Shown: one piece after another, positions 1,419-51,738 of the stretch
Numbering within the stretch: the stretch's first letter is position 1
Layout: each line of letters opens with the position of its first letter
Source of the DNA: Oscillospiraceae bacterium
GTDB taxonomy: Bacteria; Bacillota; Clostridia; WRLR01
Assembly (NCBI GenBank): GCA_009777515.1
Contig: WRLR01000013.1
Span: forward strand, 1-55,083
Length of the DNA: 55,083 nucleotides
Direction of reading: 5' to 3'
The notes under the pieces: model-generated
Seen by the model: the letters and a program-made list of their open reading frames with translations, nothing else
Databases searched by the model: none
Told to the model about the DNA's origin: nothing
Made by a program: the position numbers and the translations under genes

Positions 1419-1528
1419 AACAAAGTTTATAGATACAATGGCGTAACCGAACAATCGAACTGCCGAACAAAAGTTTATAGATACGATATCGCAACCGATC
1501 ATCCGAACAACCGAACACCGAACAAACG
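1419..1528. repeat. Two tandem copies of a ~47-bp unit
   Basis: Units at 1419-1465 and 1466-1513 share the core AAAGTTTATAGATAC and an ACCGA tail; a third partial unit follows to 1528. The array fills most of the gap between the zinc-ribbon gene and the nitroreductase gene. Confidence 0.75.
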
Positions 1529-1615
1529 ATAGTGAAAAGATTGTCCAAAAAGAATAGCTACTCTCAATACGTGGGTGTATAATTAACAAAACATCGCGAA
1601 GGGAGATAAATAACT

Positions 1616-2146
1616 ATGTCTAACCCCGTATTGGCAGCCATCGCGGATAGGCGCAGCAACCGCGCTTATAAGAAAGACCCGCTCACTAAGGAACAGTTGG
1701 ACGCCATACTCTTGGCGGCGGTGCAGTCGCCTAGCGCGCGGAACGCGCAGCCGTGGCATTTTACGGTAGTCCAGGACGGCGCCATCCTTGCGGAGATCAA
1801 CGCCGAATCGTCAAAAAACCTCAACAGGGACGTCGGCGACATCTTTTACGGCGCGCCTGCCGTCATATTCATCGCCGCGAACGTGAATGGCCCCACGCCC
1901 AAATGGGCGCGCCTCGACTGCGGCATAGCGGTGCAGAACATCGCGCTTGCCGCGCACTCGCTCGGCCTTGGCTCGGTCATTCTGGGCATGCCCGACGCCG
2001 CTTTCACCGGCCCGAGGGCAGATTATTTCAATAAACTGCTAAAATTCCCCGACACATACGAATTCGCAGTAGCGATATCCATCGGCGCGGCGACAGACAC
2101 GAAAGGCGCCCACCCGGTCGAGCCAAACAAGATAGCATACATTTAA
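1616..2146 (+). CDS. Nitroreductase family FMN oxidoreductase
   Basis: A 176-residue protein of the single-domain nitroreductase family. It starts with the typical AIADRRSNRAYK segment, where the Arg-Ser-x-Arg residues contact FMN phosphate, followed by the signature SPSARNAQPW near residues 42-51 that packs against the flavin. The C-terminal half has the family's LGLGSVILGMPD segment. Members reduce nitroaromatics, quinones or other electrophiles with NAD(P)H as homodimers in the cytoplasm; the natural substrate cannot be read here. AGGGAG lies upstream of the ATG. The gene stands alone and is followed by its own terminator. Confidence 0.88.
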   Translation: MSNPVLAAIADRRSNRAYKKDPLTKEQLDAILLAAVQSPSARNAQPWHFTVVQDGAILAEINAESSKNLNRDVGDIFYGAPAVIFIAANVNGPTPKWARLDCGIAVQNIALAAHSLGLGSVILGMPDAAFTGPRADYFNKLLKFPDTYEFAVAISIGAATDTKGAHPVEPNKIAYI

Positions 2147-2272
2147 ATAGCGCACATTAAAATTACGCACATTATGTATGTGCGAAATATGCGTATATCA
2201 TTCGATTGTATTTAAGAATTACGCGTATAGCGGGGACGCCCGCTCTGACGGATGCATAATATATGATTCGTT

Positions 2273-2310
2273 GGGGCGGGGAGTCCCCATTTGCATGTCC
2301 GCCCTTTTTT
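2273..2310 (+). terminator. Rho-independent terminator after the nitroreductase gene
   Basis: GGGCGG (2274-2279) pairs with CCGCCC (2299-2304), directly followed by six T. An inner GGGG/CCCC pairing lies inside the loop. Confidence 0.7.
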
Positions 2311-2311
2311 A

Positions 2312-2365
2312 ACCTCCATGCATCTAATTTACCTCCATGCATCTAATTTACCTCCATGCATCTAA
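2312..2365. repeat. Three tandem copies of a 19-bp unit
   Basis: The unit ACCTCCATGCATCTAATTT occurs perfectly at 2312-2330 and 2331-2349 and loses its last bases at 2350-2365. It contains the palindrome ATGCAT. An AT-rich stretch with TATAAT (2428-2433) lies between the array and the next gene and may be its -10 element. Confidence 0.85.
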
Positions 2366-2488
2366 TGAAAATTATTAAGACTTGTGAATAATTATTAATG
2401 TTTATGACTTAATATATATATTTATTCTATAATATAAGAACTAAAGTTATTTCACCTCAAACATTATCGTGCACTGGAGGTTGTTGCA

Positions 2489-4180
2489 ATGAAAAGAAGG
2501 TTTATTACAACATTGATCATTACAGCGCTGCTTTTGACGACGTTGCTGGCGGCGCAGCCCGTCGCCGTTTCGGCTGCGGCGGCAAGGCCCGTCGCCGTTG
2601 AAGGCAGGACGCTGGCCAGGGACAGGACGGGCGACAGCTCGGCGTGGATCGAAATCGCGCGCTACGGCGACTATTCGCTGATCATCCGGCAGGAACCCCT
2701 CACGGGCAGTGCCACATGGTACAACAGCGCGCTGAACAATTCGTACTCGAGTTCCATCCCGCGTTCCGAGTTCAACAACTGGTACAACAGCAGATTGTCC
2801 AGCAGCGCCAGGCTGCGCAGCTTTGTCGTAGCAAACAGCGCCATGTCCAACTGGGGCACCTACGGGACGGACTACATTGACGGCATCAGCCTGCCCATGG
2901 GTTCTGCTGCCCCCACTGGCAACGACGTGGCTTTCGCGCTCAGCTATTGCGAGGCGGCTTTGTACTGCTCCACGGAGTATCTGACGCGGCAAGGGGGCGG
3001 CACCGCCACGATCGAGCGAAGCTCCAACGCCGCGTACAACAACTATATGAGGCTGCTGCCCAGATATACCGGCGCGAACCAGACCCCGGCATACTGGCTG
3101 CGGACGCCTGGGCAGTCTTACATGTACGCCGGCTGCGTCGCCTATTCGGGCGGCTCGGGCGAGCGGACCCAGGGTCGCGTTAACCAACACACGACCATCG
3201 GCTATTATGGCCATTATCGCCCGGCTCTCTGGGTGGGCTCGGGCATTTTTGAAGACAAGGGGACTGTCAACGTAATTCATGCGGACAGGGACAGCGGCGC
3301 GGTACTCTACAGCGAAACGCACTCCGTTACGGCAGGCCCCTACGGGCCATACCTGCCCATATCGATTACAGACTATGTATATTTTGGCATACCTCAGGGC
3401 AGCGCCCCCATATCGGGCACTATCGCAGCCAACCAGACCATCAATATTATCCATCATTACGTTAAAATCCAACCACCCGTTACGTTGACATACCATCCAA
3501 ACGGCGGGGTCGGCGGTATCAACTCATATGCTTACCCATTCGGCTCGACACAGACAGTGTTCAGTCAAGGTTACAACAGGCCCGGTTATGTCTTTGATAG
3601 CTGGAACTCCCAGCCGGACGGCTCGGGGATGCGGATCGTGAACGGCGATCGGTTAACGTTGAACGGCAATTTCACTTTATATGCTCAGTGGGTGGACGAT
3701 TCAAACTATCAAATTGTTATTTATTATCCAAACGGCGGCTCGGGGTCGATAGAAGTTGACACGACCGACTCGCGCGGAAATATAACAATAACAAACAGAG
3801 GGTATACGCGCAACGGGTACATTTTCGCAGGCTGGAACACGATGCCCGACGGCAGCGGCGTGCCATATGCGGTAAGCCAGAATGTCACGCTAAGAAGCTT
3901 CCTCATCCTGTACGCGCAATGGATACCTATCCCGGTTACATATTCTGTCACCTATCATCCCGGTGGCGGCATCGGCGGCAGCACCGACGACAATTTAATC
4001 CCGGGCAGCTTTTATACAGTGAAAAGCACGACATCCGCAGGCGTTAGCTTTCAGGGGTATGAATTTATGAATTGGAACTCGCGCCCCGACAATTTAGGCG
4101 TGAGATATGATCCAGGCCAAACGTTTGTATTGACAAGCGATATGACGCTATACGCCATATGGCGGCGAAGGGTTGATTAG
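2489..4180 (+). CDS. Secreted DUF6273 protein with three InlB-type B repeats
   Basis: A 563-residue exported protein. Residues 1-32 form a signal peptide (MKRR plus a hydrophobic core ending AVSAAAA). Residues about 45-250 resemble DUF6273, with tryptophan-rich motifs such as SAWIEIARYGDY, FNNWYN and AYWLRTPG. A short MucBP-like segment follows (about 255-325). Three Listeria-Bacteroides (InlB B) repeats follow at about 329-400, 404-478 and 482-560, each starting with YxPNGG or YHPGGG and ending with LYAQW or LYAIW. I see no sortase motif, SLH domain or membrane anchor. The family is typical of Clostridia surface or secreted proteins of unknown ligand; adhesion is a guess. Confidence 0.85.
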   Translation: MKRRFITTLIITALLLTTLLAAQPVAVSAAAARPVAVEGRTLARDRTGDSSAWIEIARYGDYSLIIRQEPLTGSATWYNSALNNSYSSSIPRSEFNNWYNSRLSSSARLRSFVVANSAMSNWGTYGTDYIDGISLPMGSAAPTGNDVAFALSYCEAALYCSTEYLTRQGGGTATIERSSNAAYNNYMRLLPRYTGANQTPAYWLRTPGQSYMYAGCVAYSGGSGERTQGRVNQHTTIGYYGHYRPALWVGSGIFEDKGTVNVIHADRDSGAVLYSETHSVTAGPYGPYLPISITDYVYFGIPQGSAPISGTIAANQTINIIHHYVKIQPPVTLTYHPNGGVGGINSYAYPFGSTQTVFSQGYNRPGYVFDSWNSQPDGSGMRIVNGDRLTLNGNFTLYAQWVDDSNYQIVIYYPNGGSGSIEVDTTDSRGNITITNRGYTRNGYIFAGWNTMPDGSGVPYAVSQNVTLRSFLILYAQWIPIPVTYSVTYHPGGGIGGSTDDNLIPGSFYTVKSTTSAGVSFQGYEFMNWNSRPDNLGVRYDPGQTFVLTSDMTLYAIWRRRVD

Positions 4181-4200
4181 GTAGGTTAATAAACAAGAAC

Positions 4201-4221
4201 GGACGACCGGGGCGGTCGTCC
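4201..4221 (+). terminator. Stem-loop 20 bases after the InlB-repeat gene
   Basis: GGACGACCG and CGGTCGTCC form a perfect 9-bp stem around a GGG loop. No T run follows, so intrinsic termination is uncertain; it may instead protect the 3' end of the mRNA. Confidence 0.4.
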
Positions 4222-4245
4222 CATGCAGAAACAAATGCAATCTTC

Positions 4246-4271
4246 GTAGGGCGCGATGTCTTCATCGCGCC
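4246..4271 (+). repeat. REP-like 26-bp palindromic element, copy 1
   Basis: The copy begins GTAGGGCGCGATG, has a TCTT loop and closes with CATCGCGCC, giving a perfect 9-bp stem (4250-4258 with 4263-4271). Further copies occur at 6289, 28393-28496, 33711-33770 and 50361. Confidence 0.75.
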
Positions 4272-4307
4272 GATATACAAAATCCAACAAGGTATTGGTT
4301 ATTATAC

Positions 4308-4350
4308 AAAAACGTACAAGCGGACGGCTGCACTTGGTCGTCCGCTTGTA
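4308..4350 (-). terminator. Terminator of the dhaK-dhaL transcript
   Basis: On the minus strand a perfect 12-bp stem (TACAAGCGGACG at 4315-4326 with its complement at 4339-4350) is followed two bases later by five T (4308-4312). It lies 40 bases after the dhaL stop codon. Confidence 0.7.
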
Positions 4351-4390
4351 AATATCCAAATACATATAAATATTTATTTTTTGCGCCCCT

Positions 4391-5044: not shown

Positions 5045-5047
5045 ACG

Positions 5048-5122
5048 TCACATTCTCCAGTATCGCATTCTTCCGCGTCGCATTCTCCCGTGTCGCATTT
5101 TCCTGCGTCACATTCCTCTGCT
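5048..5122. repeat. Five tandem copies of a 15-bp unit between dhaK and dhaL
   Basis: Units such as TCGCATTCTCCCGTG repeat with a strict 15-base period at 5048, 5063, 5078, 5093 and 5108, with 2-4 changes each. The array fills most of the dhaK-dhaL gap. Confidence 0.85.
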
Positions 5123-5178
5123 CGCTTCTCTCCACACATTAATCATCCATTTTTATCCCGTTTATACCGGCCTTCGCC

Positions 5179-6183
5179 TTAATACTTAAATTGCGCTATG
5201 CCCATAGAGTCCGCCTCTGCGTCAATCAGCCCCTTCAGCTCATCGTCGATGCGCATCAGCGTAACCGTGATGCCCATCATCTCCAGTGATGTGAAATAGT
5301 TGCCGACATAGGAGCGATATACTGTAATGCCTTTTTCTGCAAGGATGTCGTGGGCGCGGTTGTAGAGGATGTACGTTTCCATCAGCGGCGTCGCGCCCAG
5401 CCCGGAAACGATCGCCGCGACTTCGCAGCCGCTCTCGAACGGCAGGTCGGGCAGTATGATGTCGAGCATCAACGCCGCGATTTCGTCTGCGGGCTTTAAA
5501 TTCGTAACGGACACGCCCGGCTCCCCGTGGTGCCCGATACCGAGCTCCATTTTTCCGTCGGCTATTTCGAAATTGGGCTTGCCCACCGCTGGGATTGTGC
5601 AGGGCGTCAGGCCCACGCCTACACTGCGTGTGTTGGCGATGGCCTTTTGCGCAACCGCGATGACCTCGTCCAGGCTCGCGCCGAGCGCGGCCTTCGCCCC
5701 TGCGGTCTTCCACATGAAAATCTCGCCCGCGCCGCCCCTGCGCTTTTCCGATTCCGCTTTCGGCGCCGATGGGACGTCGTCGTTCGCCACGACGGTGCGA
5801 ACCTCTATGTTGTTTTTTTGCACCATACGCTGCGCCAGTTTCACATTCATGTTGTCGCCGGCAAAGTTGCCGTACAGGCAAGCGACGCCTTTCCCGGAGT
5901 CGGCGGCGATGAAGGCGTCGCAAAATGCTTTGGCGGTCGGCGAGGTGAAGACTTCGCCCACGGCGCAGGCGTCCACCATGTTCCTGCCGACATAGCCGAC
6001 GAACGCCGGTTTATGGCCGGAGCCGCCCCCTGTAACCAGCCCGACCTTCCCCGGTACCGGCGCGTTGATGTATTTTATGACGCGCGGGTTATCGGTCGCC
6101 GCCACAAGGTTTTTATAGCTTTTCACGTACCCTTTGAGCATTTCCTCGACGACATTGTCCGGATTGTTTATGATACGTTGCAT
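5179..6183 (-). CDS. dhaK: Dihydroxyacetone kinase-type subunit DhaK (substrate-binding)
   Basis: A 334-residue protein of normal DhaK length. GGGSGHKPAF near residue 52 supplies the substrate-contacting Gly and His57. NFAGDNMN gives Asp110, and GHHGEPG gives His219, the residue expected to bind the ketone covalently as a hemiaminal. All key residues are present, so the subunit should be active. It heads a dhaK-dhaL pair with GGAGG before the ATG. An alcohol dehydrogenase gene lies 130 bases upstream on the same strand, consistent with oxidation of a polyol to a ketose followed by phosphorylation. The REP-like copies at 4246 and 6289 bracket this pair in opposite orientations. Confidence 0.92.
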   Translation of the reverse strand: MQRIINNPDNVVEEMLKGYVKSYKNLVAATDNPRVIKYINAPVPGKVGLVTGGGSGHKPAFVGYVGRNMVDACAVGEVFTSPTAKAFCDAFIAADSGKGVACLYGNFAGDNMNVKLAQRMVQKNNIEVRTVVANDDVPSAPKAESEKRRGGAGEIFMWKTAGAKAALGASLDEVIAVAQKAIANTRSVGVGLTPCTIPAVGKPNFEIADGKMELGIGHHGEPGVSVTNLKPADEIAALMLDIILPDLPFESGCEVAAIVSGLGATPLMETYILYNRAHDILAEKGITVYRSYVGNYFTSLEMMGITVTLMRIDDELKGLIDAEADSMGIAQFKY

Positions 6184-6288: not shown

Positions 6289-6313
6289 GGTGCGATGAAG
6301 ACATCGCGCCTAC
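6289..6313 (-). repeat. REP-like element, copy 2 (inverted relative to copy 1)
   Basis: GGTGCGATG-AAGA-CATCGCGCC forms a 9-bp stem with one wobble pair. Read on the minus strand it matches the 4246 copy almost base for base. It directly abuts the stop codon of the dehydrogenase gene. Confidence 0.7.
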
Positions 6314-7458: not shown

Positions 7459-8457
7459 TTATTGGTTTTTCAAGCGGTACGATACAAATGCGATTTTACG
7501 GCTGTCGGGCGACCATGAATTTACGTTGATGGTACCCTGCCCGCCAAACAGCTCCGCCAGCTTCGTATAACCGCTCCCGCCGTTCCCGCTGCTGCCGCCT
7601 CCACTTCCGCTACTACCTCCGCTCCCGCCACCGCCGCTCCCGCTGCCGCCGCCGACGGACATCAGCCTGAGCTCCACATGCTTGTTCGGCGGATGAGCCG
7701 CAGGCTCGACATCCCCCTTGCGGTAAGCGATGTACGCGATGCGCGTCCCGTCTGGAGATATGTGCGGGAACCAATTGTTCCAATCCTCATCGAACGTAAA
7801 CTGCACTTGGTTGCCCCCGTCGCTGTCCATCCTCCAGACCTGCATAAGCCCCGACCGCGTCGAGCAGAACCAAATATACCTGCCGCACGGCGAATATTCC
7901 GGCCCGTCGTCCAGCCCCGGCAAATCCGTAAGCTGTGTCTCTACACCGCCAACCGAGGGGATCGTATAAATGTCGTACTGCCCGTTGCGCTCGCCGCAAT
8001 AAGCCAGCGTGCCTCCGTCCGGCGAAATGCCGTGAAGATAGCTGGGGGCAATCGGTGTGATCAGCGCTGGCGTCCCGCCGGCCAAAGGCAGCGTATACAC
8101 CCTGGACCTGCCGTCCTCGCGCGTCCCGTGGCTAATCGCAAGCATTTGCCCGTCCGCAGACAGGACATGGTCGTTGTTGCAACGATCGGCAAACCCCGTG
8201 TCAACGCGCTCGACGGCGCCGCTCGCCAACTCATATGTATAGATGCGCCCGCCGCTGTTGTACACCAAGAACTTGCCGTCAACAGTCCAGTTGGGCGCCT
8301 CGATCAGCGTAGGGAACTCTTTAAGGGTCTTCCGCTCGCCTGAACCGACGTCGATTATTTCTAAAATACTGTCGACGCCCCTGTCCTGCATAGGTCTTTG
8401 CGTTTTTAAAACTTCCATATTATATTGGCTCGTAATATATCGGGCCGCCCCTTTCAT
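7459..8457 (-). CDS. TolB-like beta-propeller protein with Gly/Ser insertion
   Basis: A 332-residue protein of PD40/WD40-type blades (for example APNWTVDGKFLVYNSGG, LHGISPDGGTLAYCGE and PEYSPCGRYIWFCSTRSG), the pattern of TolB and oligogalacturonate-lyase-like propellers. There is no signal peptide, so it is probably cytoplasmic. Between blades, at about residues 268-296, sits a run made only of glycine, serine and an asparagine, which would form a flexible loop. The function is unknown; related proteins sit in sugar-degradation loci. The start at 8457 lacks a clear ribosome binding site, and a later in-frame ATG (residue 14) is possible. Confidence 0.7.
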   Translation of the reverse strand: MKGAARYITSQYNMEVLKTQRPMQDRGVDSILEIIDVGSGERKTLKEFPTLIEAPNWTVDGKFLVYNSGGRIYTYELASGAVERVDTGFADRCNNDHVLSADGQMLAISHGTREDGRSRVYTLPLAGGTPALITPIAPSYLHGISPDGGTLAYCGERNGQYDIYTIPSVGGVETQLTDLPGLDDGPEYSPCGRYIWFCSTRSGLMQVWRMDSDGGNQVQFTFDEDWNNWFPHISPDGTRIAYIAYRKGDVEPAAHPPNKHVELRLMSVGGGSGSGGGGSGGSSGSGGGSSGNGGSGYTKLAELFGGQGTINVNSWSPDSRKIAFVSYRLKNQ

Positions 8458-8572
8458 ATAATTTTTCTATTTATTAAAAATATGTTAATTTTGTTACAAA
8501 CAATATATAATACAGTTAACGAAAATGCAATCTTTGCCCGCACTACCTGTACACCCGCACCGCAAGACGCGG

Positions 8573-8636
8573 TGGCCCTGTGACCCTGTGACCCTGTGGC
8601 CTTGTGGCCCTGTTGCTCTGTGGCTCTGCAGCCCTG
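8573..8636. repeat. Eight tandem copies of an 8-bp unit
   Basis: Units of the type TGGCCCTG or TGACCCTG follow each other exactly every 8 bases from 8573 to 8636. The period is not a multiple of three. The array sits upstream of the first importer set. Confidence 0.85.
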
Positions 8637-14550: not shown

Positions 14551-14585
14551 AATAGAATAGAATGGAATGGAAAGAAAGGAAAGGC
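14551..14585. repeat. Seven 5-bp units before the ThuA-like gene
   Basis: Units AATAG, AATAG, AATGG, AATGG, AAAGA, AAGGA and AAGGC follow each other and supply the purine-rich ribosome binding site of the next gene. Confidence 0.6.
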
Positions 14586-15434: not shown

Positions 15435-15576
15435 AACGCAACTCTGACGCATGCAACTATGACACACGCAACGCTGATGCACGTAACTATGACGCAACTC
15501 TGATGCACGCAACTATGACGCATGCAACGCTGATGCACGCAACTCTTACGTATGCAACTATGACGAACGCAACTCT
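15435..15576. repeat. About ten degenerate copies of a 15-bp unit
   Basis: Units of the type GACGCATGCAACTAT or GATGCACGCAACTCT repeat every 15 bases, with two shortened 11-base units at 15435 and 15491. The array ends directly at the GAAAGG ribosome binding site of the oxidoreductase gene. Alternate units end in CTAT, CGCT or CTCT, hinting at a higher-order 30-45 bp duplication. Confidence 0.9.
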
Positions 15577-15593
15577 GAAAGGATAATATAATA

Positions 15594-16793: not shown

Positions 16794-16866
16794 TTTTGCT
16801 ACCGGTTCGCTTTGCATGTGGGCTTCGTTTTGGGTTTTGCATTTTGGCTTCGCATTTTAACTTCGC
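16794..16866. repeat. Degenerate GGCTTCGCATTTT-type repeats before importer set B
   Basis: Short units such as GGCTTCGTTTTGGGTTTTGCATTTT and GGCTTCGCATTTT recur with variable spacing up to the start of the permease gene. The period is not strict. Confidence 0.55.
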
Positions 16867-16881
16867 ATGGAGATGGTTAAT

Positions 16882-17819: not shown

Positions 17820-17910
17820 CAGCATTGCTATGGAATTGCTATGGCATTAGCATTTGTATTTGTATTAGCATTCGCATTATCGTTAGCATTTGAGTTAGCA
17901 TTACCAGGCC
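17820..17910. repeat. TTAGCATT-type short repeats between the set B permeases
   Basis: The words TTAGCATT, TCGCATTA and GCTATGGCA recur with 10-15 base spacing in the 128-base gap. Set A has only 12 bases here, so the gap appears to have grown by repeat expansion. Confidence 0.65.
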
Positions 17911-17936: not shown

Positions 17937-18827
17937 ATGAAAAAAAAGCTGCATTATTCCCGAGGGGACACGATTTTTAGTATATTGCTTTACACTATAT
18001 CCGTGCTCATATTGATCATCGTTATTTATCCGCTGTGGTTCATTGTGATCGCATCTTTTAGCGATCCGTCCGCTGTAGGCACGGGCAAGGTCTGGTTGGT
18101 TCCAAGCCACTTCACTCTGCTGGGGTACCAAGAACTGATTAAGCGCTCAAACATATGGACGGGGTACCGCAATACGATACTGTATGTGGCCGTAGGGACA
18201 TTTATCGGGCTCAGCGTAAACATACCTGCGGCGTACGCGCTATCGCGGCGCGACTTGGTGGGCAGACGAATAATTACGCTATACTTCATTTTCACAATGT
18301 TCTTTAGCGGCGGGCTGATCCCGACATACCTAAATATCCAGGGTTTCAATTTATACAATACTTTTTGGGTCATGGTCCTGCCTTTTTCGGTGGCGGTATA
18401 CAATATAATCGTAGCGCGCACTTTTTACACCGCCAGCCTCCCCGACGGGATTTTAGACGCGGCGCAAATCGATGGTTGCAACAATCTGCGCTTCTTTTTC
18501 ACAATGGCGCTCCCGCTGTCAAAAGCGATAATTGCCGTCCTGGGCCTGTGGATGGCAGTCGGGCATTGGAATGCGTACTTCAACGCGCTGATTTATTTGA
18601 AAGACGAATCGCGGTACCCGCTGCAATTGATTTTGCGTTCCATACTCATCATAAACGACAACCTGACCATAGCGGGCAGCGACGAGGCAGCCATATTGGC
18701 TAGGAAGATTGCGGATCTGATCAAATATTCCTGCATCATCGTCTCCACCGTACCAATTATGATGCTGTATCCATTTGTGCAAAAATATTTCAATCAAGGC
18801 GTCATGATAGGCGCAATCAAGGAATAA
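17937..18827 (+). CDS. Sugar ABC transporter permease, LplC/YtcP type (set B)
   Basis: A 296-residue membrane protein with the marks of its family: IVIYPLWFIVIASFSDP, FIFTMFFSGGLIPTYL, EAA-loop equivalent LDAAQIDGCNNLRFF and the C-terminus QGVMIGAIKE. It pairs with the LplB protein at 16882. The last eight codons with the stop are copied three more times in the DNA that follows. Confidence 0.9.
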   Translation: MKKKLHYSRGDTIFSILLYTISVLILIIVIYPLWFIVIASFSDPSAVGTGKVWLVPSHFTLLGYQELIKRSNIWTGYRNTILYVAVGTFIGLSVNIPAAYALSRRDLVGRRIITLYFIFTMFFSGGLIPTYLNIQGFNLYNTFWVMVLPFSVAVYNIIVARTFYTASLPDGILDAAQIDGCNNLRFFFTMALPLSKAIIAVLGLWMAVGHWNAYFNALIYLKDESRYPLQLILRSILIINDNLTIAGSDEAAILARKIADLIKYSCIIVSTVPIMMLYPFVQKYFNQGVMIGAIKE

Positions 18828-18958
18828 TTCCGATAATCATGATAGGCGCAACCAAGGAATAATTTCAATAAACATTAATCATGATAGGCGCAGCCAAGGA
18901 GTAATTACATTAAACATTAAATCATTATAGGCGTAATCAAGATGCAATACTGGTAATT
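18804..18958. repeat. Four tandem copies of the 3' end of the permease gene
   Basis: The sequence encoding MIGAIKE-stop (from 18804) recurs at 18839 (MIGATKE-stop), 18881 (MIGAAKE-stop) and 18924 (IIGVIK, no stop). Unit lengths are 35, 42, 43 and about 35 bases. The first copy is the real gene end; the rest are intergenic. Confidence 0.9.
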
Positions 18959-18987
18959 AAAAAATATAAGGTTTGAAAGGAGCAAAA

Positions 18988-20727
18988 ATGAAAAAAACTG
19001 TACTTGCAACGCTTTGTTTTATCATGGCAATATCAATGCTGGCCGCTTGCGGCGGCGGGGGCGGCGGCGATGCGACCACGGCAGGCGCGGCTGCAACAAC
19101 CGCAGCGGGCGCTGCCGCGACCACCACAGCGGCAGCCGCGACGGAAGCTGCCACGACGGCGGCGGCCACCACGGCAGCGGCAACGGCGGCTGCCGCAGCC
19201 ACGACCGCAGGGGCGGCAACCGGCGGCGAACCGGACGACAATTTTAACGCCGAAGGCCTGCCCATCGTCAACACGCCCGTCACAATCGACGTGCTGGCCG
19301 TGCGCTACCTGTCGCATGGCGACGCGTTCAAAACAAATTCATGGTACACCCAGCTCGAACAGGACACGAACGTAATCATCGATTGGCAGATAGCATACGA
19401 TTCCGACTGGGCGGAGAAAAAATCCATAATGTTCGCCAGCGGGGACATCCCCAGCGTTATTTTTGGCGCCAACGGCTTTTCAGACACGGATATCCTCACC
19501 AACCTGGATTATTTTATCCCGCTAAACGATCTCATCGAGGACTACATGCCCAGGCTGAAGTCCGTGTTCGAGCAAGAGCCTGACATGAAAAAAATTATCA
19601 CCAACCTTGACGGGAAAATATACAGCCTGTCAAAACGCTTGCCCTACCGCCCCATAGTTTCATACCAGCCGTTCATCAACAAGGTCTGGCTGGATAACCT
19701 TGGCCTGGAAGTCCCCGACACCACCGAAGACTTGTTCGACGCGCTCATGGCCTTTAAAGAACAGGACGCGAACGGCAACGGGGACGCGAACGACGAAATC
19801 CCGTTTACGGGGTCGGCGGGCAACAGCTTCTTCGGGAACTTTAACCTATACAGTTTATTTGGCGCAAACGCAAACGGGGAAGGATTGACTATTATAGATG
19901 ACACGGCGATATTCGTTCCCATGACCGACGAATTTATGGAAGCGATAAAATATGCGCGCAGGATGTACGCCGAAGGCTTGATGGACAACGAATATTTCAC
20001 GCAGGACGGCAGCATGGCCAACGCGAAGAGGCAAAACCCGGATCTGTGCATCGTTGGGTTCGAATACGCCTGGACGCCCGACGCGACATTGGCCGGGCAT
20101 GCGGATGAATTCATCACGATCCCGCCCCCCGCAAGACCGGACGGGCAGCGTTTCAGCACGTCAATCCGCGAGAGCAATATCGGTCGGCGCGAATTGGAAA
20201 TCTCCATCTATTGCAAATATCCGGAAGTGGTCGCCCGCTGGGCCGACGAGTTTTATACATACGACGCCGCAGTCCAGAACTATTGGGGGCCTTTCGGCGT
20301 AGGCATGGAGAAGCTTGCCGACGGCACATATAGAATGCTGCCGCCGGACGAAGGCGAAAGCATCGACTACCGCTCCTGGGCGACCAGCAACAGGGACTTC
20401 GGGCCTAAATGGATGCCTGCCGACTATGATAATTTCGATCTGATAAAAACCAACGGCGACGGCTTAAAATGGGAAATCAACAAGATTGGCGAGCCATATT
20501 CCTACCCGACGTTCCCTCCGGTTATATACTCCGTGGAACAGGCCGATCAAATACAGTCGTACCGCACGGACATCAGGACATATGTCGGCACAACCACCGC
20601 TAAATGGATCACCGAAGGCGGCATAGAATCGGAGTGGGACGGCTACATTTCGCAGCTCAGGGCAATGGGTGTCGATGACTGGATGGCAATTCATCAGGAC
20701 GCATATGATAATTACATGAACTCATGA
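18988..20727 (+). CDS. Sugar-binding lipoprotein of importer set B
   Basis: A 579-residue extracellular solute-binding protein. The signal peptide ends in the lipobox LAAC, followed by a glycine run and an Ala/Thr stalk (about residues 20-75). The binding domain has VNTPVTIDVLAVRY and DTNVIIDWQIAYDSDWAEKK-like segments typical of LplA-like proteins. I place the start at 18988, where AAAGGAG is seven bases upstream, rather than at the in-frame TTG at 18973 that overlaps this site. It closes importer set B and the whole 8.7-20.7 kb locus. Confidence 0.9.
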   Translation: MKKTVLATLCFIMAISMLAACGGGGGGDATTAGAAATTAAGAAATTTAAAATEAATTAAATTAAATAAAAATTAGAATGGEPDDNFNAEGLPIVNTPVTIDVLAVRYLSHGDAFKTNSWYTQLEQDTNVIIDWQIAYDSDWAEKKSIMFASGDIPSVIFGANGFSDTDILTNLDYFIPLNDLIEDYMPRLKSVFEQEPDMKKIITNLDGKIYSLSKRLPYRPIVSYQPFINKVWLDNLGLEVPDTTEDLFDALMAFKEQDANGNGDANDEIPFTGSAGNSFFGNFNLYSLFGANANGEGLTIIDDTAIFVPMTDEFMEAIKYARRMYAEGLMDNEYFTQDGSMANAKRQNPDLCIVGFEYAWTPDATLAGHADEFITIPPPARPDGQRFSTSIRESNIGRRELEISIYCKYPEVVARWADEFYTYDAAVQNYWGPFGVGMEKLADGTYRMLPPDEGESIDYRSWATSNRDFGPKWMPADYDNFDLIKTNGDGLKWEINKIGEPYSYPTFPPVIYSVEQADQIQSYRTDIRTYVGTTTAKWITEGGIESEWDGYISQLRAMGVDDWMAIHQDAYDNYMNS

Positions 20728-21546: not shown

Positions 21547-24500
21547 GTGTATAACTATCAATTTATTAAACTCTTTGTAGTCTTTTATATTATTTCATGC
21601 ATATTTACCATTATACCGCAAAATGTCATTGCCAATGCAGCGAGCCAAGGCCTGTTCATAGATATCGAAGGTGGGGAATACTATGCGGACGCCGCAGATA
21701 TTTTAGCAAAACTACGTATTTTACAAGGTTACCCTGACGGCACTTTTGGTGCGAATAGAAATATAACTAGAGCTGAAATTACTGCTGTTGTTTTAAGGGC
21801 TTTAGGACTAGAAGATGAGGCTGGTCGATTGGCGGGAACGACGTCATATGATGACGTCGCGAGTAATCATTGGGCAAGCGGGTACATCAACGTAGCCACT
21901 GATCTAGGCATCATACAAGGAGACGGTGATGGTACGTTCCGCCCTGAAGACAATGTTAAGTATGAAGAAGCTATTAAAATGGTTGTAGAAACCGTAGGAT
22001 TAGGCGAAGACGCTCTCCAGTCGGGCGGCTGGCCTGACGGTTATATTGACGTAGCTAAGGAAAATGGCATTATTGATAATGTTCCAGGGGCTAAAGGCAA
22101 CACATCCGTTCGAGGCGATGTCGCACTCATGACATATCAGGCTCTATTGTCTCAGGTGACTGCGCCGACAGTATCATTGGCTGGGGGGGAGTACACATCC
22201 GAGCAAAAGGTCCGGCTTTTAACGACTGTAAGAAATTCAGTTATATACTACACATTGGACGGTTCTGTTCCTACAACACGCAGCTCAAGATATAGAAGCG
22301 AGCTGACATTGAAGGAAACGACTACCCTTAGCGCAATAGTCGTGAGACATGGGCTTTTGGCAAGCAGTGTACTCACAGCAAGGTACGTTATAAATATTCC
22401 ACCAGTTCTGCCTGCTCCTACCCCAGTTGTGAATATTGTCAGCACTGGCGGGGGCGGGGGCGGAGGTGGCGGGGGCGGCGGCGTATCGACACCGACACCA
22501 ACCCCTGGTGGTGGTGGCGGCGGATCGACACCGACACCGACGCCAACCCCTGGTGGTGGTACAGGACCGACAATCAATGTCCTTACGGAATTCCCATCGG
22601 GCAACACGCGCAGCAACTTCGTTGATATAACTTATACCGCTACACCAGGCATCGGCGCCAGCATTTCCGAGGTGTACTATAAAATTAACAATGGTATAGG
22701 AGAGTATATTTATTTAACAGGCGGCGGCGGGATAACCGCAAAAGGCACTCTGGGGACAGGCCGCGTCATGCTCCTACCTGGCGAAAACAGTATTGTGTTT
22801 ACAGCAAAAGACTCAAATGGCGATACGGGCAATTTTGATGTTATCAACCATCCATTTTATGATTTTGGATCGACTCCCGATTATGAAGTGGGCTTCATAG
22901 AGGCTCTGCCGAGCAATCCAGAATTGTTATTTGCGACCAATAGGATTGTCGTTTTTGCGAAAATAGGCGCCACGGACGCGCAGGTAGAGGAGGCTGTCGC
23001 AACAGCGGGAGGTGCAGTAATTGGCCAGATAAACATATTAGGCAAGTACATCGTTCAAGTCCCTGCTAGCAGTGCGCCTGAATTGACAGCTTTATGTGAA
23101 AGCCTTATGGTTGCGTACCCAAGCATATTTGATTCCGTTCTGCTTGATATAATCGAGGAAGTGGACGCCGGGTCCGGATCAATATTACACACAAACGATC
23201 CGTGGTGGGACACAAGCCAATGGGGGTTAGATGCCATTGACGCCCCGATAGCTTGGTCCGAATATAGCGAGTATCTACACGATATAAAAGTGGGAGTCGT
23301 TGATAATGGTTTCAAGTACTCCCATGAGGACATAGGCGTCCCCTCCAGCAACATATCCAACTTGGACCGCGCTGACCAAAATCACGGAACGCACGTAATG
23401 GGGACGATCGGGGCGATTCATAACAATAATAAAGGCCTGGCCGGGGTAATAGATGTTAGCCGTGGTTCTTTGTATGGTTTTGACGCTTTTGACATAGACG
23501 AGACGTTTTGGGGCATTACAATTGAACGCGGCGCCTACGCGTCGACGCAAAAAATACTCGAAGGCTTGGCTTGGAATGTAGCAAACGGGGCAAAAGTCAT
23601 TAATTTTAGCCTTGGATCAAGCGGCGCGACGGGGACATACGACGGATACACGATAGCCTTGAATAGGCTTCTTATGCAAGGGTACGATTTTATCGTTGTA
23701 CAAGCTGCCGGTAACAGCGCCGAGGATGCTAATATGGCCGGCGTGTTTGCGTATGTAAATGAACCTGATCTGCGAAAAAGAATAATCACCGTCGGAGCCT
23801 CTGATGTTAATGGAGATATGGCATATTTTTCCAACTATGGTCCTAGGGTTGATGTTGTTGCTCCCGGCGTCGGTATTTACAGCAGTTTCGCAAACAGTGA
23901 TTCCGCGTATAGCAGCATTTCAGGTACTTCCATGGCTGCGCCACATACAACCGGAGTTACCGCACTTGCATGGTCTGCCAATCCTGGCTTAACAGGTACG
24001 CAAGTAAAGGAGATTGTCATTGACTCGGCGAATCTCTTCGGGCGCAGGATCACTGATACAAGAAGCGGCCTTCCGGCTGAATCAAGGGATAGATCGTACG
24101 GCGAAATCAATGCAAAGGCGGCTGTTGAAATAGCAATTGGCGTCACCCATGAAAATGGTCGGCTCGCGGGACAGGTCGTAACCGCTATGGCCAACGGGTC
24201 AGACGGCCCTGCCATCGGCGGTGCATTGATCACTTTGCATTCCGGTTCAACTAGCCCTGCGATAAACTCTGTCACATCCGATGCCGAGGGCCACTATGTC
24301 ATGGAAAATATCATTGTTGGTGAATATTTTCTTGAGATAGCAGCCGAAGGCCACATCCCTGAAAGGTTCTTTATTAATATTGAAGCAGACCTGACGACGC
24401 ATATACACCGTTTAAGAGCGGTTCCGAGAAGTATTGAGGATGGAACAGTCAGCGGCAGCATTATAAATGCATTCTCCGGCGCTATGATCAATGACGAAAT

Positions 24501-29800: not shown

Positions 29801-29889
29801 ATATGCAAATATGAAAATAGGCAAATATGTAAATTAATCAAATATGCAAATTAGCTAACATGTATGCAATTATGCAAATGGCAAACTAA
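29801..29889. repeat. Degenerate ATATGCAAAT-type repeats in the divergent promoter region
   Basis: AATATGCAAAT, AATATGTAAAT, AATATGCAAATTAGC and ATTATGCAAATGGC follow each other with 17-23 base spacing, ending just before the AGGAGGG of the hydrolase gene. Regulator sites may overlap this array. Confidence 0.7.
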
Positions 29890-33674: not shown

Positions 33675-33781
33675 GAGCCGCGCCAGAGCACCCTACGAAT
33701 ATATGACAGTGTGTCGAGGACATCGCACCCTACGAATATATGACGGTGTGCCGGGGGCGTCGCGCCCTACGAATATTTCAC
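33675..33781. repeat. Three tandem 36-bp units of the REP-like family
   Basis: Units begin at 33675, 33711 and 33747 and share CCCTACGAATATATGAC; the second and third contain the minus-oriented REP core (GGGCGTCGCGCCCTAC in the third). The third unit runs into the 3' end of the P-type ATPase gene and supplies its stop codon (33767-33769). Confidence 0.8.
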
Positions 33782-35689: not shown

Positions 35690-35842
35690 TGTCCTTATCA
35701 CAATGTCCTTATTCCAAGGTCTTATGCCTAATGTCCTTTGCCCTATGTCCTTTGCCCTATGTCCAATGCCTGATGTCCTTATCCAATGTCCTTTGCTTAA
35801 TGTCTTTATCCCGATGTACTTTATCTAATATCCTTTGAATAA
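35690..35842. repeat. Eleven degenerate 14-bp units before the ATPase gene
   Basis: Units such as ATGTCCTTTGCCCT and ATGTCCTTATCCA repeat with a period of 13-15 bases from 35690 to 35842. The array separates the metal operator from the ATPase start and merges with the operator at its distal end. Confidence 0.9.
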
Positions 35843-37813: not shown

Positions 37814-37859
37814 CCATATAATTATTTGGCAAGCGGGTTCATAAGTGATAATTCAAATA

Positions 37860-37943
37860 GTGTAAAACGCATATGGTGCAATAATGCAAAAAGCATATGA
37901 TGCAAATAGATCAAAACGCCAATGGTGTAAATAATGCAAATAA
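37860..37943. repeat. Degenerate GTGCAATAATGCAAA-type repeats
   Basis: Units such as GTGTAAAACGCATATG, GTGCAATAATGCAAAAAGCATATG and GTGTAAATAATGCAAATAA recur with a 16-25 base period in the gap 37814-38216, which holds no gene. A TATAAT at 37999-38004 may be a -10 element of the GH4 gene. Confidence 0.6.
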
Positions 37944-38032: not shown

Positions 38033-38174
38033 GACAACATGCTTGTTGTTTCAACATGCTTATTGTTTCGACACACATGTTGTTTCAACATGCTTATTGC
38101 TTCAACACACATGTTGTTTCAACACACATGTTGTTTCAACACGCATGTTGTTTAAATGCGCTTGTTGTATCAAC
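38033..38174. repeat. Array of about eight 17-bp hairpin-forming units
   Basis: The unit ATGTTGTTTCAACACAC recurs with variants. Each holds the small palindrome TGTTG-TTT-CAACA, so the transcribed leader could fold into a chain of mini-hairpins or alternative long hairpins. Confidence 0.85.
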
Positions 38175-38216
38175 AATCTTAGTAAAACGATTTTAATTAT
38201 TTAAAGGAGAGTTTTT

Positions 38217-40966: not shown

Positions 40967-41011
40967 CTGCGCATCAAATACTGCGCATCAACTCGTAAAA
41001 ATCGTAAAATC
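40967..41011. repeat. Tandem 14-bp duplication before the symporter gene
   Basis: CTGCGCATCAAATA (40967-40980) is followed by CTGCGCATCAACTC (40981-40994), then by two shorter GTAAAAATC/GTAAAATC units. The array lies nine bases upstream of the symporter start codon. Confidence 0.7.
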
Positions 41012-42648: not shown

Positions 42649-42677
42649 GCTTTACCTCCTTTCCCATGTGCTTGAAT

Positions 42678-42759
42678 CGTTGTGCATCCATCACATATCG
42701 TTGTGCATCCACTAGATATCTTTGTGCATCCACTAAGTATCGTTGCGCATATGGTATGC
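42678..42759. repeat. Four 21-bp units copied from the dmpG 3' end
   Basis: Units begin at 42678, 42699, 42720 and 42741. The period is a multiple of three. In the dmpG frame they read HMRNDT-stop, then WMHKDI-stop, WMHNDM-stop and WMHNDS, so each copy keeps the tail peptide and, in three of four, a stop codon. Confidence 0.9.
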
Positions 42760-43755: not shown

Positions 43756-43833
43756 GTACTGCCTTGTTATGTGTGCGCCTTATTATGTGCACGCCACGTT
43801 ATGTATGCAATAATTTATGTATGTATTTGCGGC
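43756..43833. repeat. Five 16-bp units between dmpF and dmpG
   Basis: Units such as GTGTGCGCCTTATTAT (43771), GTGCACGCCACGTTAT (43787) and GTATGCAATAATTTAT (43803) repeat every 15-16 bases up to the dmpF stop codon. Confidence 0.8.
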
Positions 43834-44754
43834 TTATGCTGCGGGCATGTCTGTTGCAATCCGTTCGGCTGCGGCGATGGCCGCCGATGTGATGATGTCG
43901 AGGTTCCCGGAATAATCCGGCAAGAAATCCCCCTGCCCGCGCACCTGCACGATGACGGTCACTACATCGCCATCCATCATCGGCGGCACCCGGAGCTGGT
44001 AGCCGGGCACATATGTGTTCACATCGGCCACAATCTCGTCCACCGACGCGCGGATGCGCTCGAGCCCCACCGACTTGTCCTTGACTTTGACGATGATCGT
44101 ATTCGTCATCATTAGCGGGGGCACAGCCGGGTTCAAAATGATAATCGCCTTGCCCCTTTCCGCCCCGCCTACGGTTTCTATGGCTTTTGCGGTCGTCTCC
44201 GTAAACTCGTCCATGTTCGCGCGCGTGCCGGGCCCGGCGCTCTCCGACGAGATGCACGCTACAATTTCGGCATACGCCGCCCCCGCGACCCGCTCGACGG
44301 CATGCACGATCGGTATCGTCGCCTGCCCGCCGCAGGTCACCATGTTTATATCCTGCTCACGGCGTAGCGCGGACAGATTGACGCTCGGCACGCAATACGG
44401 CCCCAACGCCGCCGGCGTGAGATCGACGGATACGATGCCCGCCCCCCGGAGCGCGGGCGCGTTGAATTTTTTGTGGGCGGCGGCGCTGGTGGCGTCAAAC
44501 GCGATGCGTATGTCGCCTTTTTCGGTCAGCGCTTTGACGCCTTCCGTGGACACGGGCACGCCAAGGCCGGCCGCGCGGCGTATGCCCTCGGACTCAACGA
44601 TGCCGACCATCATGCCCATTTCCAGCCGCTCGCTCCTGAAAACCTTATACATCAGATCGGTGCCGATATTCCCCGGCCCGATGATACCGACCTTGATCTT
44701 GCCGTTTGATTTTTTGGCTTCCATGTCATTTACCATGTTGTTTTCCATGTCCAT
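43834..44754 (-). CDS. dmpF: Acetaldehyde dehydrogenase (acylating)
   Basis: A 306-residue CoA-acylating dehydrogenase. The Rossmann motif [15 protein letters not shown] binds NAD, and the catalytic Cys141 is in [12 protein letters not shown]. It turns acetaldehyde, NAD and CoA into acetyl-CoA in complex with DmpG. The N-terminus is ambiguous: a 12-bp repeat array crosses the start and offers several in-frame ATGs (residues 1, 3, 7 and 11). The family normally begins a few residues before KVGIIG, so the start at residue 11 (44724) may be real. Confidence 0.92.
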
Positions 44755-44842
44755 TTCTCATGTCATTTACCATGTCATTAACAATGTCCATTTCACATGT
44801 TATTTACAATGCTGTTTTCCATGCCGTTTAATATGTCATTTC
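44721..44842. repeat. About ten 12-bp ATG-containing units over the dmpF start
   Basis: Units of the type CCATGTCATTTA repeat every 11-14 bases from 44721 to 44842. Each holds an ATG on the minus strand, several in the dmpF frame, giving the start peptide its M-x-M-x-x-x-M pattern. Confidence 0.9.
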
Positions 44843-47531: not shown

Positions 47532-47546
47532 TTCGGTATATCCGAA
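47532..47546. promoter_or_regulatory. Candidate IclR binding site
   Basis: TTCGGTATATCCGAA is a 15-bp palindrome of 5-5-5 form, 30 bases upstream of the -35 box. A degenerate half (TTCGGTATTT) lies 21 bases away at 47511. Confidence 0.5.
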
Positions 47547-48770: not shown

Positions 48771-48842
48771 TCGAATTATTGGGTGCATAATTTTACGCGC
48801 CATTGGGCGGGGAGAGAAGCGAGACAATGAAAATGCAGCTAA

Positions 48843-49076
48843 GTGTCGCCTGTCGGTTATATTTTGAATGAAAAAGATAAAAAGCAAATACCGCTGCGCA
48901 TAACGCAGGCGTTATGGAACGATCTTTCGGCGTGGGCGGACGACGAGTTCCGCTCACTGAACGGGCAGATAGAATATCTGCTGACCGATTGCGTAAAAAA
49001 GCGGAAGCGCCGGCACGCAGACAACCGCCCCACAAACGGCGGCGGCAACGGCGACGATGACAACGTCGAATCGTAA
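48843..49076 (+). CDS. Arc-type ribbon-helix-helix protein
   Basis: A small protein of 77 residues (70 if translation starts at the TTG at 48864). IPLRITQALWNDLSAWADDEFRSLNGQIEYLLTDCV is the Arc/MetJ-like beta-strand-helix-helix pattern. The tail is basic, then Gly/Asp/Asn-rich. It would bind DNA as a dimer and may regulate the SPFH gene just upstream. The GTG at 48843 has no ribosome binding site. A short ATG-initiated frame (about 48827-48871) with a GGAG upstream overlaps out of frame and could couple translation. Confidence 0.75.
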   Translation: MSPVGYILNEKDKKQIPLRITQALWNDLSAWADDEFRSLNGQIEYLLTDCVKKRKRRHADNRPTNGGGNGDDDNVES

Positions 49077-49103
49077 GGCGGGGGGTCCACCCACGCCGCG
49101 CCC

Positions 49104-49940
49104 CTATATAGCCCCATGCTTTCGCATATACTCCATGGACTGGCCGACGGCACCGCCGATTTCCGTTTCGTTTATCGGAGCGGCATCCGACGACAGCTGC
49201 GCCAACGTACCCGCCACGAACACGGGTATCTCCAGCCCGCAATGGATCGGCCGCCCCAACTGAGCCAACGCTTCGAACACCTTGGGCAGGTTGACGTCGC
49301 CCATGCCCAGGGGCCGGTAATACGCGTTGTCGCCGTCAATATGGATGTCCTTGACATGGACATATGCTAAAAATTCCAGCCCGTAGAGGATGTCCTCCTC
49401 TATCACAACGTTCCCACCGGCGTAAAAATACGTATTCCCCGTATCATAATTAAGGCGAATCAACGGGTGGTTTATTTCGCAGAAGAGCGAAGCCGCATCT
49501 TTCGCCGTGCCGACAATGTCGCCGTGGCTTTCGAGGCAGACCGTCAGCCCGAGCCGCTCCGCGCGTTCGATGATCCTCGGCAGGTTCCTGCGGAACTCGC
49601 CCAAGCGCCCTACCGGGCCCGAATTGGTATTAATGACCGTGCAGCCGATACCGGCAGCCAGATCCATCTTTTTTAGAAACCCCTCCAACTCAGCGTCCTG
49701 CGTCAGATCCACATGTCCGGCAAACGCGTACGCAGATAATTTATTTTGCCCCATCATGTCCGACAAGGATTCTATGAACCCCGGCGTGATGTCCCCCGGT
49801 ACGATGTGTTCGCACATCCCGGCAATCGATGCGATCTCCACGCGGTCAAACCCGCACTCCGACGCGATGCGCAGCGCCTGTGGCAGGCTGTAGCCCTTTG
49901 CTATGTTAGTGACAAAAGAAACCGACTCAAATATAGCCAT
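49104..49940 (-). CDS. Sugar phosphate isomerase/epimerase (xylose-isomerase-like TIM barrel)
   Basis: A 278-residue TIM barrel of the AP endonuclease 2/hydroxypyruvate-isomerase-like family. The metal ligands appear in order: Glu in CLESHGD, Asp in LNYDTGN, His in YVHVKDIH and Glu in CGLEIPV. This set matches tagatose 3-epimerase and hydroxypyruvate isomerase type enzymes. It is intracellular and stands alone, convergent with the ribbon-helix-helix gene. A role in tetrose or inosose metabolism is possible. Confidence 0.85.
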   Translation of the reverse strand: MAIFESVSFVTNIAKGYSLPQALRIASECGFDRVEIASIAGMCEHIVPGDITPGFIESLSDMMGQNKLSAYAFAGHVDLTQDAELEGFLKKMDLAAGIGCTVINTNSGPVGRLGEFRRNLPRIIERAERLGLTVCLESHGDIVGTAKDAASLFCEINHPLIRLNYDTGNTYFYAGGNVVIEEDILYGLEFLAYVHVKDIHIDGDNAYYRPLGMGDVNLPKVFEALAQLGRPIHCGLEIPVFVAGTLAQLSSDAAPINETEIGGAVGQSMEYMRKHGAI

Positions 49941-49991
49941 TTTATGCTCCTAAAACTTTTAATGCCATGAATTATACATTACCGCCCACGC

Positions 49992-50077
49992 CTCGGCAAT
50001 GCATCGAACAAATCTCGGCAACGCATTGACCACATCTCACAATGCATCACCCACGTCTCGACAATGCCATAACCAAC
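49992..50077. repeat. Four ~22-bp units upstream of the isomerase gene
   Basis: Units CTCGGCAATGCATCGAACAA..., CTCGGCAACGCATTGACCAC..., CTCACAATGCATCACCCACG and CTCGACAATGCCATAACCAA start at 49992, 50014, 50036 and 50057. Confidence 0.8.
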
Positions 50078-50180
50078 ACCACAACCACCGCCCGCAGCCA
50101 TCGCGCTCCTAACTAAACATTGACAATGCGCCGATTTATTGCTAAAATTTTAGAGTTGATACAGTGTTCACACCGTTTGC

Positions 50181-50253
50181 GCGCCATTAGCTCAGTTGGT
50201 AGAGCAATTGACTCTTAATCAATGGGTCCCGGGTTCGAGCCCCTGATGGCGCA
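50181..50253 (+). tRNA. tRNA-Lys (anticodon CTT)
   Basis: The acceptor stem GCGCCAT pairs with ATGGCGC, followed by discriminator A. The D loop AGCTCAGTTGGTAGAGC, the anticodon loop CTCTTAA with CTT, and the T loop GGGTTCGAGCCCC are all normal. CCA is not encoded. It is a single tRNA gene with its own terminator. Confidence 0.97.
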
Positions 50254-50263
50254 TGGCAGAAAG

Positions 50264-50296
50264 ACCCTATAGCCGCAAAGGCTGTAGGGTTTTTTA
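50264..50296 (+). terminator. Terminator of tRNA-Lys
   Basis: ACCCTATAGCC (50264-50274) pairs with GGCTGTAGGGT (50280-50290) with one wobble, followed by a T run. Confidence 0.9.
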
Positions 50297-50360
50297 TCTG
50301 CTCGCGTTTACCCCCACCTGCCACTTTCACCTATAAAAGCAGCAGTGAGATAATGTCAAT

Positions 50361-50386
50361 GTAGGGTGCGACGCCCTCGGCGCACC
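50361..50386 (+). repeat. REP-like element, plus orientation
   Basis: Starts GTAGGGTGCGACGCCC and ends GGCGCACC, matching the copy at 28471 with three changes. The remaining gene-free DNA to 50717 is AT-rich, and I see no further feature in it. Confidence 0.75.
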
Positions 50387-50717
50387 GCAGAAAGACGTGA
50401 CCGCCATTCATTTGAAAAATGGGTCGGGTTTCGGCAGCATCACAATTTATAATTTGTTGTCAATTTTTAAGTGGTTAAGATGCTTGATTTAGTACATAAT
50501 AAGATATAGAATAAATAAAGGCAAAACACGGATATCTTACCTTTGACTCATAATTGCCGCGTTCGTGGCAGACATCGGTTGATGAGCAATCCGGTTCGCA
50601 TTTCGGCTATCCGAATATCCGGCTTGTTACAATAACACAATTTAAACATCATACAAATGATAGCTCATAGTATGTAATCGATGTAAAAATCATAATCAAA
50701 TTGGATGTGATGTTAGT

Positions 50718-51617
50718 ATGGAGTTGGAAAAACTCTATTTGACGATTATCAATAATCTGTTGGACGGCGTCTATTTTGTCAACAAAGACAGGCGCATCAC
50801 TTTCTGGAACGATGCCGCAGAAAATATCACAGGCTACAAAGCCGACGAAATAGTGGGCCAGTGCTGCCAGGACAACCTGCTCAACCACATTGACAGCGAC
50901 GGGCGCGCGCTGTGCCTTTTGGGGTGCCCGCTGTTCGCGACCATCATTGACGGGCGGCAGCGCAAGGACACAGTGTTCTTGCAACACAAAGAGGGGCACA
51001 GAATCCCCGTATACATCAATATCATTCCCATGATGGAAGACGGCGCAATCATCGGCGCAATCGAAGTGTTTACGCAAAGCTCATCCGCCATCAATGACAA
51101 CACCGTCATCCTTAAGCTTTTGGACATGCAGCTCAACAGCGACCTGTCAGGCGTCACGAACCGGGGGAAAACCGAAAGCTATATTGCGTATAGGCTAAAT
51201 GAGCTGAAAAGATTCCAAAAGGATTTTTGCGTTATTTTCTTTAACATGGACAATTTTAAGCAGTTTAATGACCTCTACGGGCATGAAACGGTAGAAAAGC
51301 TGCTAAAAAACGTTTATAAATCCATAAACTATAATATCAGGCCATCTGATTTTTTCAGCCACTGGAGCAGCGATGCGTTTATCGGCGTATTCGAAATAAG
51401 CAAAAAATACGAAGCTACGCTGCTCGCGGAAAAAATACGGATACTGGTCGCCGGTTCCGACGTCCCGCACGATTTGAAGAACCTGTCAATCACGGCATCT
51501 TTTGGGGTGACGGTCGCGCGGGAGGACGACACGGTGGATTCTGTCGTACAGCGTGCAGACGCGCTTATGCGCCAGAGCAAAGCTAAAAATAAAAACTGTG
51601 TGTCTTCAGACGCGTGA
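50718..51617 (+). CDS. PAS domain protein with degenerate GGDEF domain
   Basis: A 299-residue protein without membrane segments. Residues 1-120 form a PAS domain (DGVYFVNKDRRITFWNDAAENITGY). Residues 135-295 form a GGDEF-fold domain with the conserved NMDNFKQFNDLYGH. The catalytic GG(D/E)EF stretch is replaced by SSDAF (WSSDAFIGVF), so diguanylate cyclase activity is unlikely; a GTP- or c-di-GMP-sensing or partner role is more probable. ADALMRQSKAKNKN at the end is family-typical. It precedes an HD-GYP gene by 243 bases, probably in one operon. Confidence 0.85.
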   Translation: MELEKLYLTIINNLLDGVYFVNKDRRITFWNDAAENITGYKADEIVGQCCQDNLLNHIDSDGRALCLLGCPLFATIIDGRQRKDTVFLQHKEGHRIPVYINIIPMMEDGAIIGAIEVFTQSSSAINDNTVILKLLDMQLNSDLSGVTNRGKTESYIAYRLNELKRFQKDFCVIFFNMDNFKQFNDLYGHETVEKLLKNVYKSINYNIRPSDFFSHWSSDAFIGVFEISKKYEATLLAEKIRILVAGSDVPHDLKNLSITASFGVTVAREDDTVDSVVQRADALMRQSKAKNKNCVSSDA

Positions 51618-51634
51618 CAGATGCGTGAAACAAA

Positions 51635-51738
51635 ACGCATGACATAAAGCGCAAGATAACTGGCGCTGTGGCAACAAACGCGTGACATAAAGCGCAAGAT
51701 AACTGGCGCTGTGGCAACAAACGCGTGACATTAAACCC
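51635..51738. repeat. Tandem 43-bp direct repeat
   Basis: Two almost identical 43-base units (51635-51677 and 51678-51720; one difference noted) and a partial third (51721-51738). Each begins ACGC(A/G)TGACAT, resembling the end of the preceding gene (GACGCGTGACAG). Confidence 0.9.

Follow-up and report, generated by a model that had tools for sequence, protein, structure and literature searches.

Short tandem arrays were found throughout the genome of this Oscillospiraceae bacterium and across its family, at a level roughly ten times that of other members of the class. The explanation that we consider probable (about 0.75) is a family-wide, continuing tandem duplication of the slippage type, with decay of the copies by point mutation and filtering by selection only. 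The initial annotation, which had described such repeats between the genes of one contig, was a real observation; it was overstated within that contig and understated in scope, as the arrays are genome-wide and family-wide and reach core proteins.

The window (the whole stretch of 55,083 nucleotides that was analyzed, contig 13 of the genome) was searched using Tandem Repeats Finder (TRF), with a score of at least 50 as the cut-off for array counts. Each gap of at least 40 bp was also tested for self-repetition against 199 dinucleotide shuffles of its own sequence. Gene calls came from an in-house frame-specific Markov caller combined with greedy selection. The longest frame was taken as the start, so that starts are approximate and gaps tend to come out shorter, a bias against the finding of arrays. 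Self-repetition was significant (p ≤ 0.01) in 19 of the 34 gaps, for which 0.3 was expected, and about 15 gaps showed little or none. The count of about twenty intergenic tandem-repeat sites was thus correct, and TRF arrays were present at most of the places named (Table 1). The arrays at 14551 and 43761 were weak, and at 40967 no 14-bp TRF array was found (gap p = 0.05). The statement that nearly every gene junction is filled in this way went too far, as the genome-wide share ranges from ~30% of gaps for strong arrays to about half for any significant self-repeat.

Table 1. Tandem arrays found in the window by TRF, in gaps and in coding sequence (in frame), with the self-repetition p value of the gap.
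Position	Strand	Location	Repeat	TRF score	Gap p
1120..1281	+	coding, linker of zinc-ribbon protein (ORF 504-1382)	periods 12, 30, 9		
1422..1529 (TRF 1422-1517)		gap	48 bp x2.0, inner 15/8 bp repeat	129	0.005
2312..2366		gap	19 bp x2.9, copies 100% identical	110	0.005
5046..5115		gap	15 bp x4.6 (30 bp x2.3)	103	0.005
7606..7654	-	coding, ORF 7459-8457	period 15	47-55	
8572..8636		gap	8 bp x8.1	74	0.005
14551..14576		gap	5 bp x5.4, weak	31 only	0.005
15436..15578		gap	15 bp x9.8, nested 30 + 56 bp periods	139-183	0.005
16809..16868		gap	13 bp x4.7, degenerate	50	0.010
17844..17903		gap	6 bp x10, degenerate	50	0.005
18802..18941		gap	35 bp x2.1 + 42 bp x2.5	120 + 158	0.005
19049..19234	+	coding, near N-terminus of ORF 18973-20727	periods 3, 24, 15/30	35-78	
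22477..22556	+	coding, subtilase-type protein, between SLH/CHB domains and peptidase domain (Pfam)	39 bp x2.1	97	
29801..29853		gap	8 bp x6.2 / 17 bp x2.9	58-59	0.005
33688..33776		gap	37 bp x2.4	136	0.005
35690..35821		gap	14 bp x9.5, degenerate	85	0.005
37854..37940		gap, shared with 38035..38175	25 bp x3.5	102	
38035..38175		gap	17 bp x8.3, nested 34 + 51 bp periods	156-191	0.005
42676..42750		gap	21 bp x3.6	101	0.005
43761..43795		gap	16 bp x2.2, weak	49	0.005
44719..44841		gap	12 bp x9.9, 25 + 37 bp periods	90-149	0.005
49992..50067		gap	22 bp x3.5	82	0.005
51633..51752		gap	43 bp x2.8	191	0.005

The zinc-ribbon protein has Pfam DUF4428 and DZR at its two ends, and the long gap with the 22-bp array also holds a tRNA-Lys (ctt) at 50181-50253. 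A TRF hit in dhaK (5231-5291) was considered as an enzyme insert and was not counted, as no insertion relative to the solved DhaK 3ct4 was seen in the aligned part, whose end lies within the stretch. Repeats of other kinds were also observed. Short palindromes with the pattern GTAGGG-palindrome-CCCTAC and cores of several types occur at dispersed sites (4201-4221, 4253-4268, and 6292-6307 in the window) and are REP-like; two of the types each occur at ~15-17 per Mb in this genome and almost never in the sister genera or comparators. A dispersed repeat of ~160-195 bp, 85-92% identical, lies on several contigs (L085:15342, L088:5466, L099:14607, L100:4418 and 7138, and L169:15103), and no Rfam match to it was obtained in L085, L088, and L099.

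Over 888 kb of the genome (G000; 4.54 Mb in 272 contigs, 91% complete, 7.5% estimated contamination), a strong array was present in 119 of 391 gaps, compared with about one in the shuffles. Twenty contigs other than the window (400 kb) had arrays in 53 of 176 gaps, with at least one array on every contig. Arrays were found in 27 of 64 gaps in G002 (73% complete) and 7 of 43 in G001, which represent two sister genera of the family with one genome each, compared with 10 of 380 gaps across 43 further genomes of the class. The Fisher p values against these 43 genomes (2.5e-28 for G000, 1e-17 for G002, and 6e-4 for G001) are descriptive because gaps within a genome share ancestry. The check proposed with the initial annotation, enrichment over shuffled gaps and related genomes, therefore came out in its favor. 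Under a laxer test (a gap exceeding all of its 39 shuffles), 46% of the G000 gaps and 12% of those in comparators were positive, where 2.5% was expected, and arrays of at least four copies with units of at least 10 bp numbered 127 per Mb in G000 and 2.5 in comparators. In named genomes from several phyla, 17 of ~469 gaps near GH4 genes had arrays (3.6%, summed over rows), and none of the 17 gaps in a 50-kb stretch of E. coli K-12 did. High GC was rejected as an explanation, since, among GC-rich comparators, arrays were found for example in 0 of 10 gaps of G004 (66%) and 1 of 7 gaps of G036 (61%). Two further sequences, JASGUW010000034.1 (L004, 2/8 gaps) and CACXHD010000088.1 (L024, 3/11), possibly come from other array-rich Bacillota, the numbers being small.

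The number of contigs and the estimated contamination would be compatible with an artefact of assembly or binning, but we find this hardly credible: the arrays are short with mostly diverged copies, those in coding sequence keep the frame, all 20 contigs first sampled had them, and the two other assemblies of the family were alike.

The gap arrays of G000 had a median period of 19 bp (5-95% range 10-51) and consisted, as minisatellites do, of head-to-tail units of roughly 10-60 bp repeated beyond chance. Units were unrelated between sites, as initially described; similar pairs numbered 6 of 13,366, and shuffles gave 2-5, which is not the pattern of a transposed or dispersed repeat family. The remark that copies had diverged to varying degrees was also borne out, as identity ran continuously from ~65 to 100%, with values of at least 95% in 28 of 164 gap arrays. 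Arrays that continually arise and decay should show such a spread, and the word continuing rests on this identity spectrum. Nested periods (15/30/56, 17/34/51, and 12/25/37) suggest rounds of duplication acting on units that had already diverged. In the few gap pairs whose synteny with G001 looked genuine (in L153 and L228), the array was present in G000 only; most other "syntenic" pairs involved paralogous transporter genes and were left out.

Arrays of the same kind were present in frame within genes, where the initial annotation had supposed that the process might also act. Coding arrays numbered 238 in 855 kb of G000, compared with 9 in 393 kb of the first 20 comparators (~12-fold per kb). 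The periods of gap arrays fell into all classes modulo three, and those of coding arrays were divisible by three in 230 of 238 cases, a figure that by itself is no proof since naturally repetitive proteins would also yield multiples of three. The same size range in gaps and genes, with a frame filter in genes only, suggests that a single mutational process is at work and that selection filters its products. The proposal of a genome-wide process in which local tandem duplications subsequently acquire point mutations is thus supported by the genome survey, the identity spread, and the in-frame coding arrays.

Clean cases, defined as exact two-copy duplications with no further similarity on either side, numbered 25 in gaps and 12 in coding sequence; end homology of at least 2 bp was present in 13 and 6 of these, respectively, compared with ~6% by chance. 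Short direct repeats, as left by replication slippage, were therefore found at the borders of duplicated segments, not universally; about half of the clean duplications had 0-1 bp of homology, and another route may contribute to these. The end homology is in keeping with slipped strands that pair at very short repeats, and RecA recombination usually requires longer sequences than most of the units. Hairpin-prone founder units showed no excess over other gap DNA. Slippage would be the likely mechanism. During replication or repair, slipped pairing between very short matches (a few bp) would copy ~10-50 bp in place, repeated rounds would build minisatellites, and point mutation would wear the copies down. 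Selection would not favor the arrays; it would remove those next to start codons and those out of frame inside genes, and the survivors would be seen as filler in gaps and, within proteins, as low-complexity linkers made of whole codons.

Array coverage was 0.03-0.06 in the 30 bp upstream of starts, compared with ~0.14 further up; the scarcity extended over the 30-40 bp before start codons, and no dip was seen after stops. No orientation preference was observed, as co-directional, convergent, and divergent gaps held arrays at about the same frequency. Since arrays are scarce before starts and not after stops and show no preference for gap orientation, they are unlikely to act in regulation or as terminators. 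Intergenic VNTRs do regulate genes in some bacteria, but that selection maintains the arrays as a whole for a function, be it as binding sites, terminators, or phase-variable switches, is highly improbable, considering also that units are unrelated between sites, that hairpins are not in excess, and that the same kind of array occurs inside genes.

Proteins were also compared with those of outgroups. For 77 G000-outgroup pairs, inserted residues numbered 24.8 per 1000 amino acids in G000 and 7.9 in the partners, compared with 7.6 and 8.1 for comparators among themselves. In DNA polymerase I (PolA) of G000, G001, and G002, the exonuclease and polymerase parts were separated by long inserts rich in Gly/Ala/Ser/Glu/Pro, which differed in each genome and were absent from G038, G005, and G043. 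The N-terminal linker of PolC likewise had low-complexity inserts that differed per sister (e.g., QEHRED-type repeats in G000). The polA gene appears to run in frame into coaE (identified by its sequence and by customary gene order rather than a profile search) via a repetitive linker in G001 (L202) and G002 (L204), not in G000. A second PolA-type polymerase stretch with one internal TAG is located at G000:C106:11654-12595.

The tolerance of inserts even in PolA and PolC, together with the rather long array-free gaps of G000 (median 149 bp for gaps of at least 50 bp), would agree with relaxed selection, in which duplication occurs at an ordinary bacterial rate and mildly deleterious duplications persist in the family owing to a small effective population size. 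We regard this as possible, though doubtful, since the coding density is ordinary (0.87) in a genome of 4.5 Mb and the frame and start-codon filters are strong. Decayed genomes are not known to show this single kind of change alone. Apart from mere tolerance, the duplication rate itself may be raised, two situations that one genome per genus does not separate.

The loss of mismatch-repair or related genes, suggested at the outset as a place to look for the cause, was not supported. MutS (934 aa) and MutL (732 aa) were open frames without stops in G000, and MutS2, RecJ, XseA, and a Y-family polymerase were all present, which excludes the loss of RecJ, XseA, or the Y-family polymerase as the cause there; the 73% complete G002 gave hits neither to RecJ nor to the Y family. 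Long repair-gene frames in G000 were, in addition to MutL, those of PolA (1028 aa), MutS2 (924 aa), DnaE (1350 aa), and XseA (488 aa), these being frame lengths of predicted proteins. Ku end joining was rejected, as Ku was absent from G000, G001, and G002 and found in 10 of 60 relatives. A predicted PolA flap nuclease (5'-3' exonuclease, PF02739) was present in all three, and SbcD, not found in G000, was present in G001 and G002 and thus does not track the trait.

One difference in the replicative polymerase was found. The PolC proteins of G000, G001, and G002 matched model positions 5-174 and 371/379-1210, so that the embedded 3'-5' exonuclease was missing; G000 had a low-complexity stretch at the position of this domain and no other hit to the exonuclease part of the PolC model. 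The loss of this exonuclease may contribute to the arrays; that it raised slippage and caused them is unlikely. Seven genomes had PolC without the exonuclease (loci L209, L210, L211, L212, L216, L220, and L224), and the four outside the family had arrays in 1 of 31 (G003), 0 of 35 (G008), 0 of 23 (G013), and 0 of 20 gaps (G016); the loss is therefore not sufficient by itself. The PHP proofreading site also appears intact, its residues being kept in all PolCs compared. Moreover, 6% of PolCs were reported to be without the exonuclease, almost all of them from Clostridia and Negativicutes (PMC3919608). A combined loss of the PolC exonuclease and DnaQ is compatible with the data, as a DnaQ-like ORF separate from PolC is present in the array-free G008 and G013. 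We tentatively envisage that the whole family is in a heritable hyper-duplication state, in which altered replication or repair (e.g., exonuclease-less PolC without a stand-alone DnaQ, together with the insert-laden PolA) would generate 10-50 bp duplications far above the normal rate, remodel the gaps, and place low-complexity linkers in essential proteins including replication enzymes.

Prokaryotes rich in tandem repeats are already known, and the present case is an extreme variant among bacteria, not a new kind. In a survey of satellites (Subirana and Messeguer 2019), group medians were 0-3 per Mb, with a bacterial maximum of 23 per Mb in a Burkholderia chromosome and values of 28 per Mb for Methanobrevibacter ruminantium and 89 for a Methanosarcina (PMC6749651). 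Those satellite-rich prokaryotes, especially M. ruminantium and Methanosarcina, likewise have many short arrays scattered genome-wide; the 127 per Mb of G000 was obtained under a similar but not identical rule, and the spread over a family and the inserts in replication enzymes are particular to the present case. Ordinary bacterial VNTR loci (MLVA markers) share the anatomy of the arrays but are usually scattered rather than present in ~30% of gaps. De novo in-frame tandem duplications in beta-lactamase genes, some bounded by 3-8 bp direct repeats, were ascribed to replication slippage (PMC4169377); they are similarly short, but are single events under drug selection, unlike the genome-wide accumulation here, for which selection is not evident. 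Low-complexity insertions in Plasmodium falciparum are likewise pervasive in the proteome and lie within conserved proteins (PMC7534687), but that eukaryote has AT-rich codons and homopeptides of Asn, and the present bacterium, with 54-62% GC, has Gly/Ala/Ser/Pro/Glu-rich stretches built from 10-50 bp units.

Protein lengths, linkers, and domain borders derived from such genomes call for care. If the duplication rate is truly raised, the family would be a natural mutator for short tandem duplication, a change that leaves few traces in most bacteria, and a bacterial counterpart of the low-complexity protein expansion of Plasmodium. It would then offer a way to ask which parts of the replication machinery restrain short tandem duplication.
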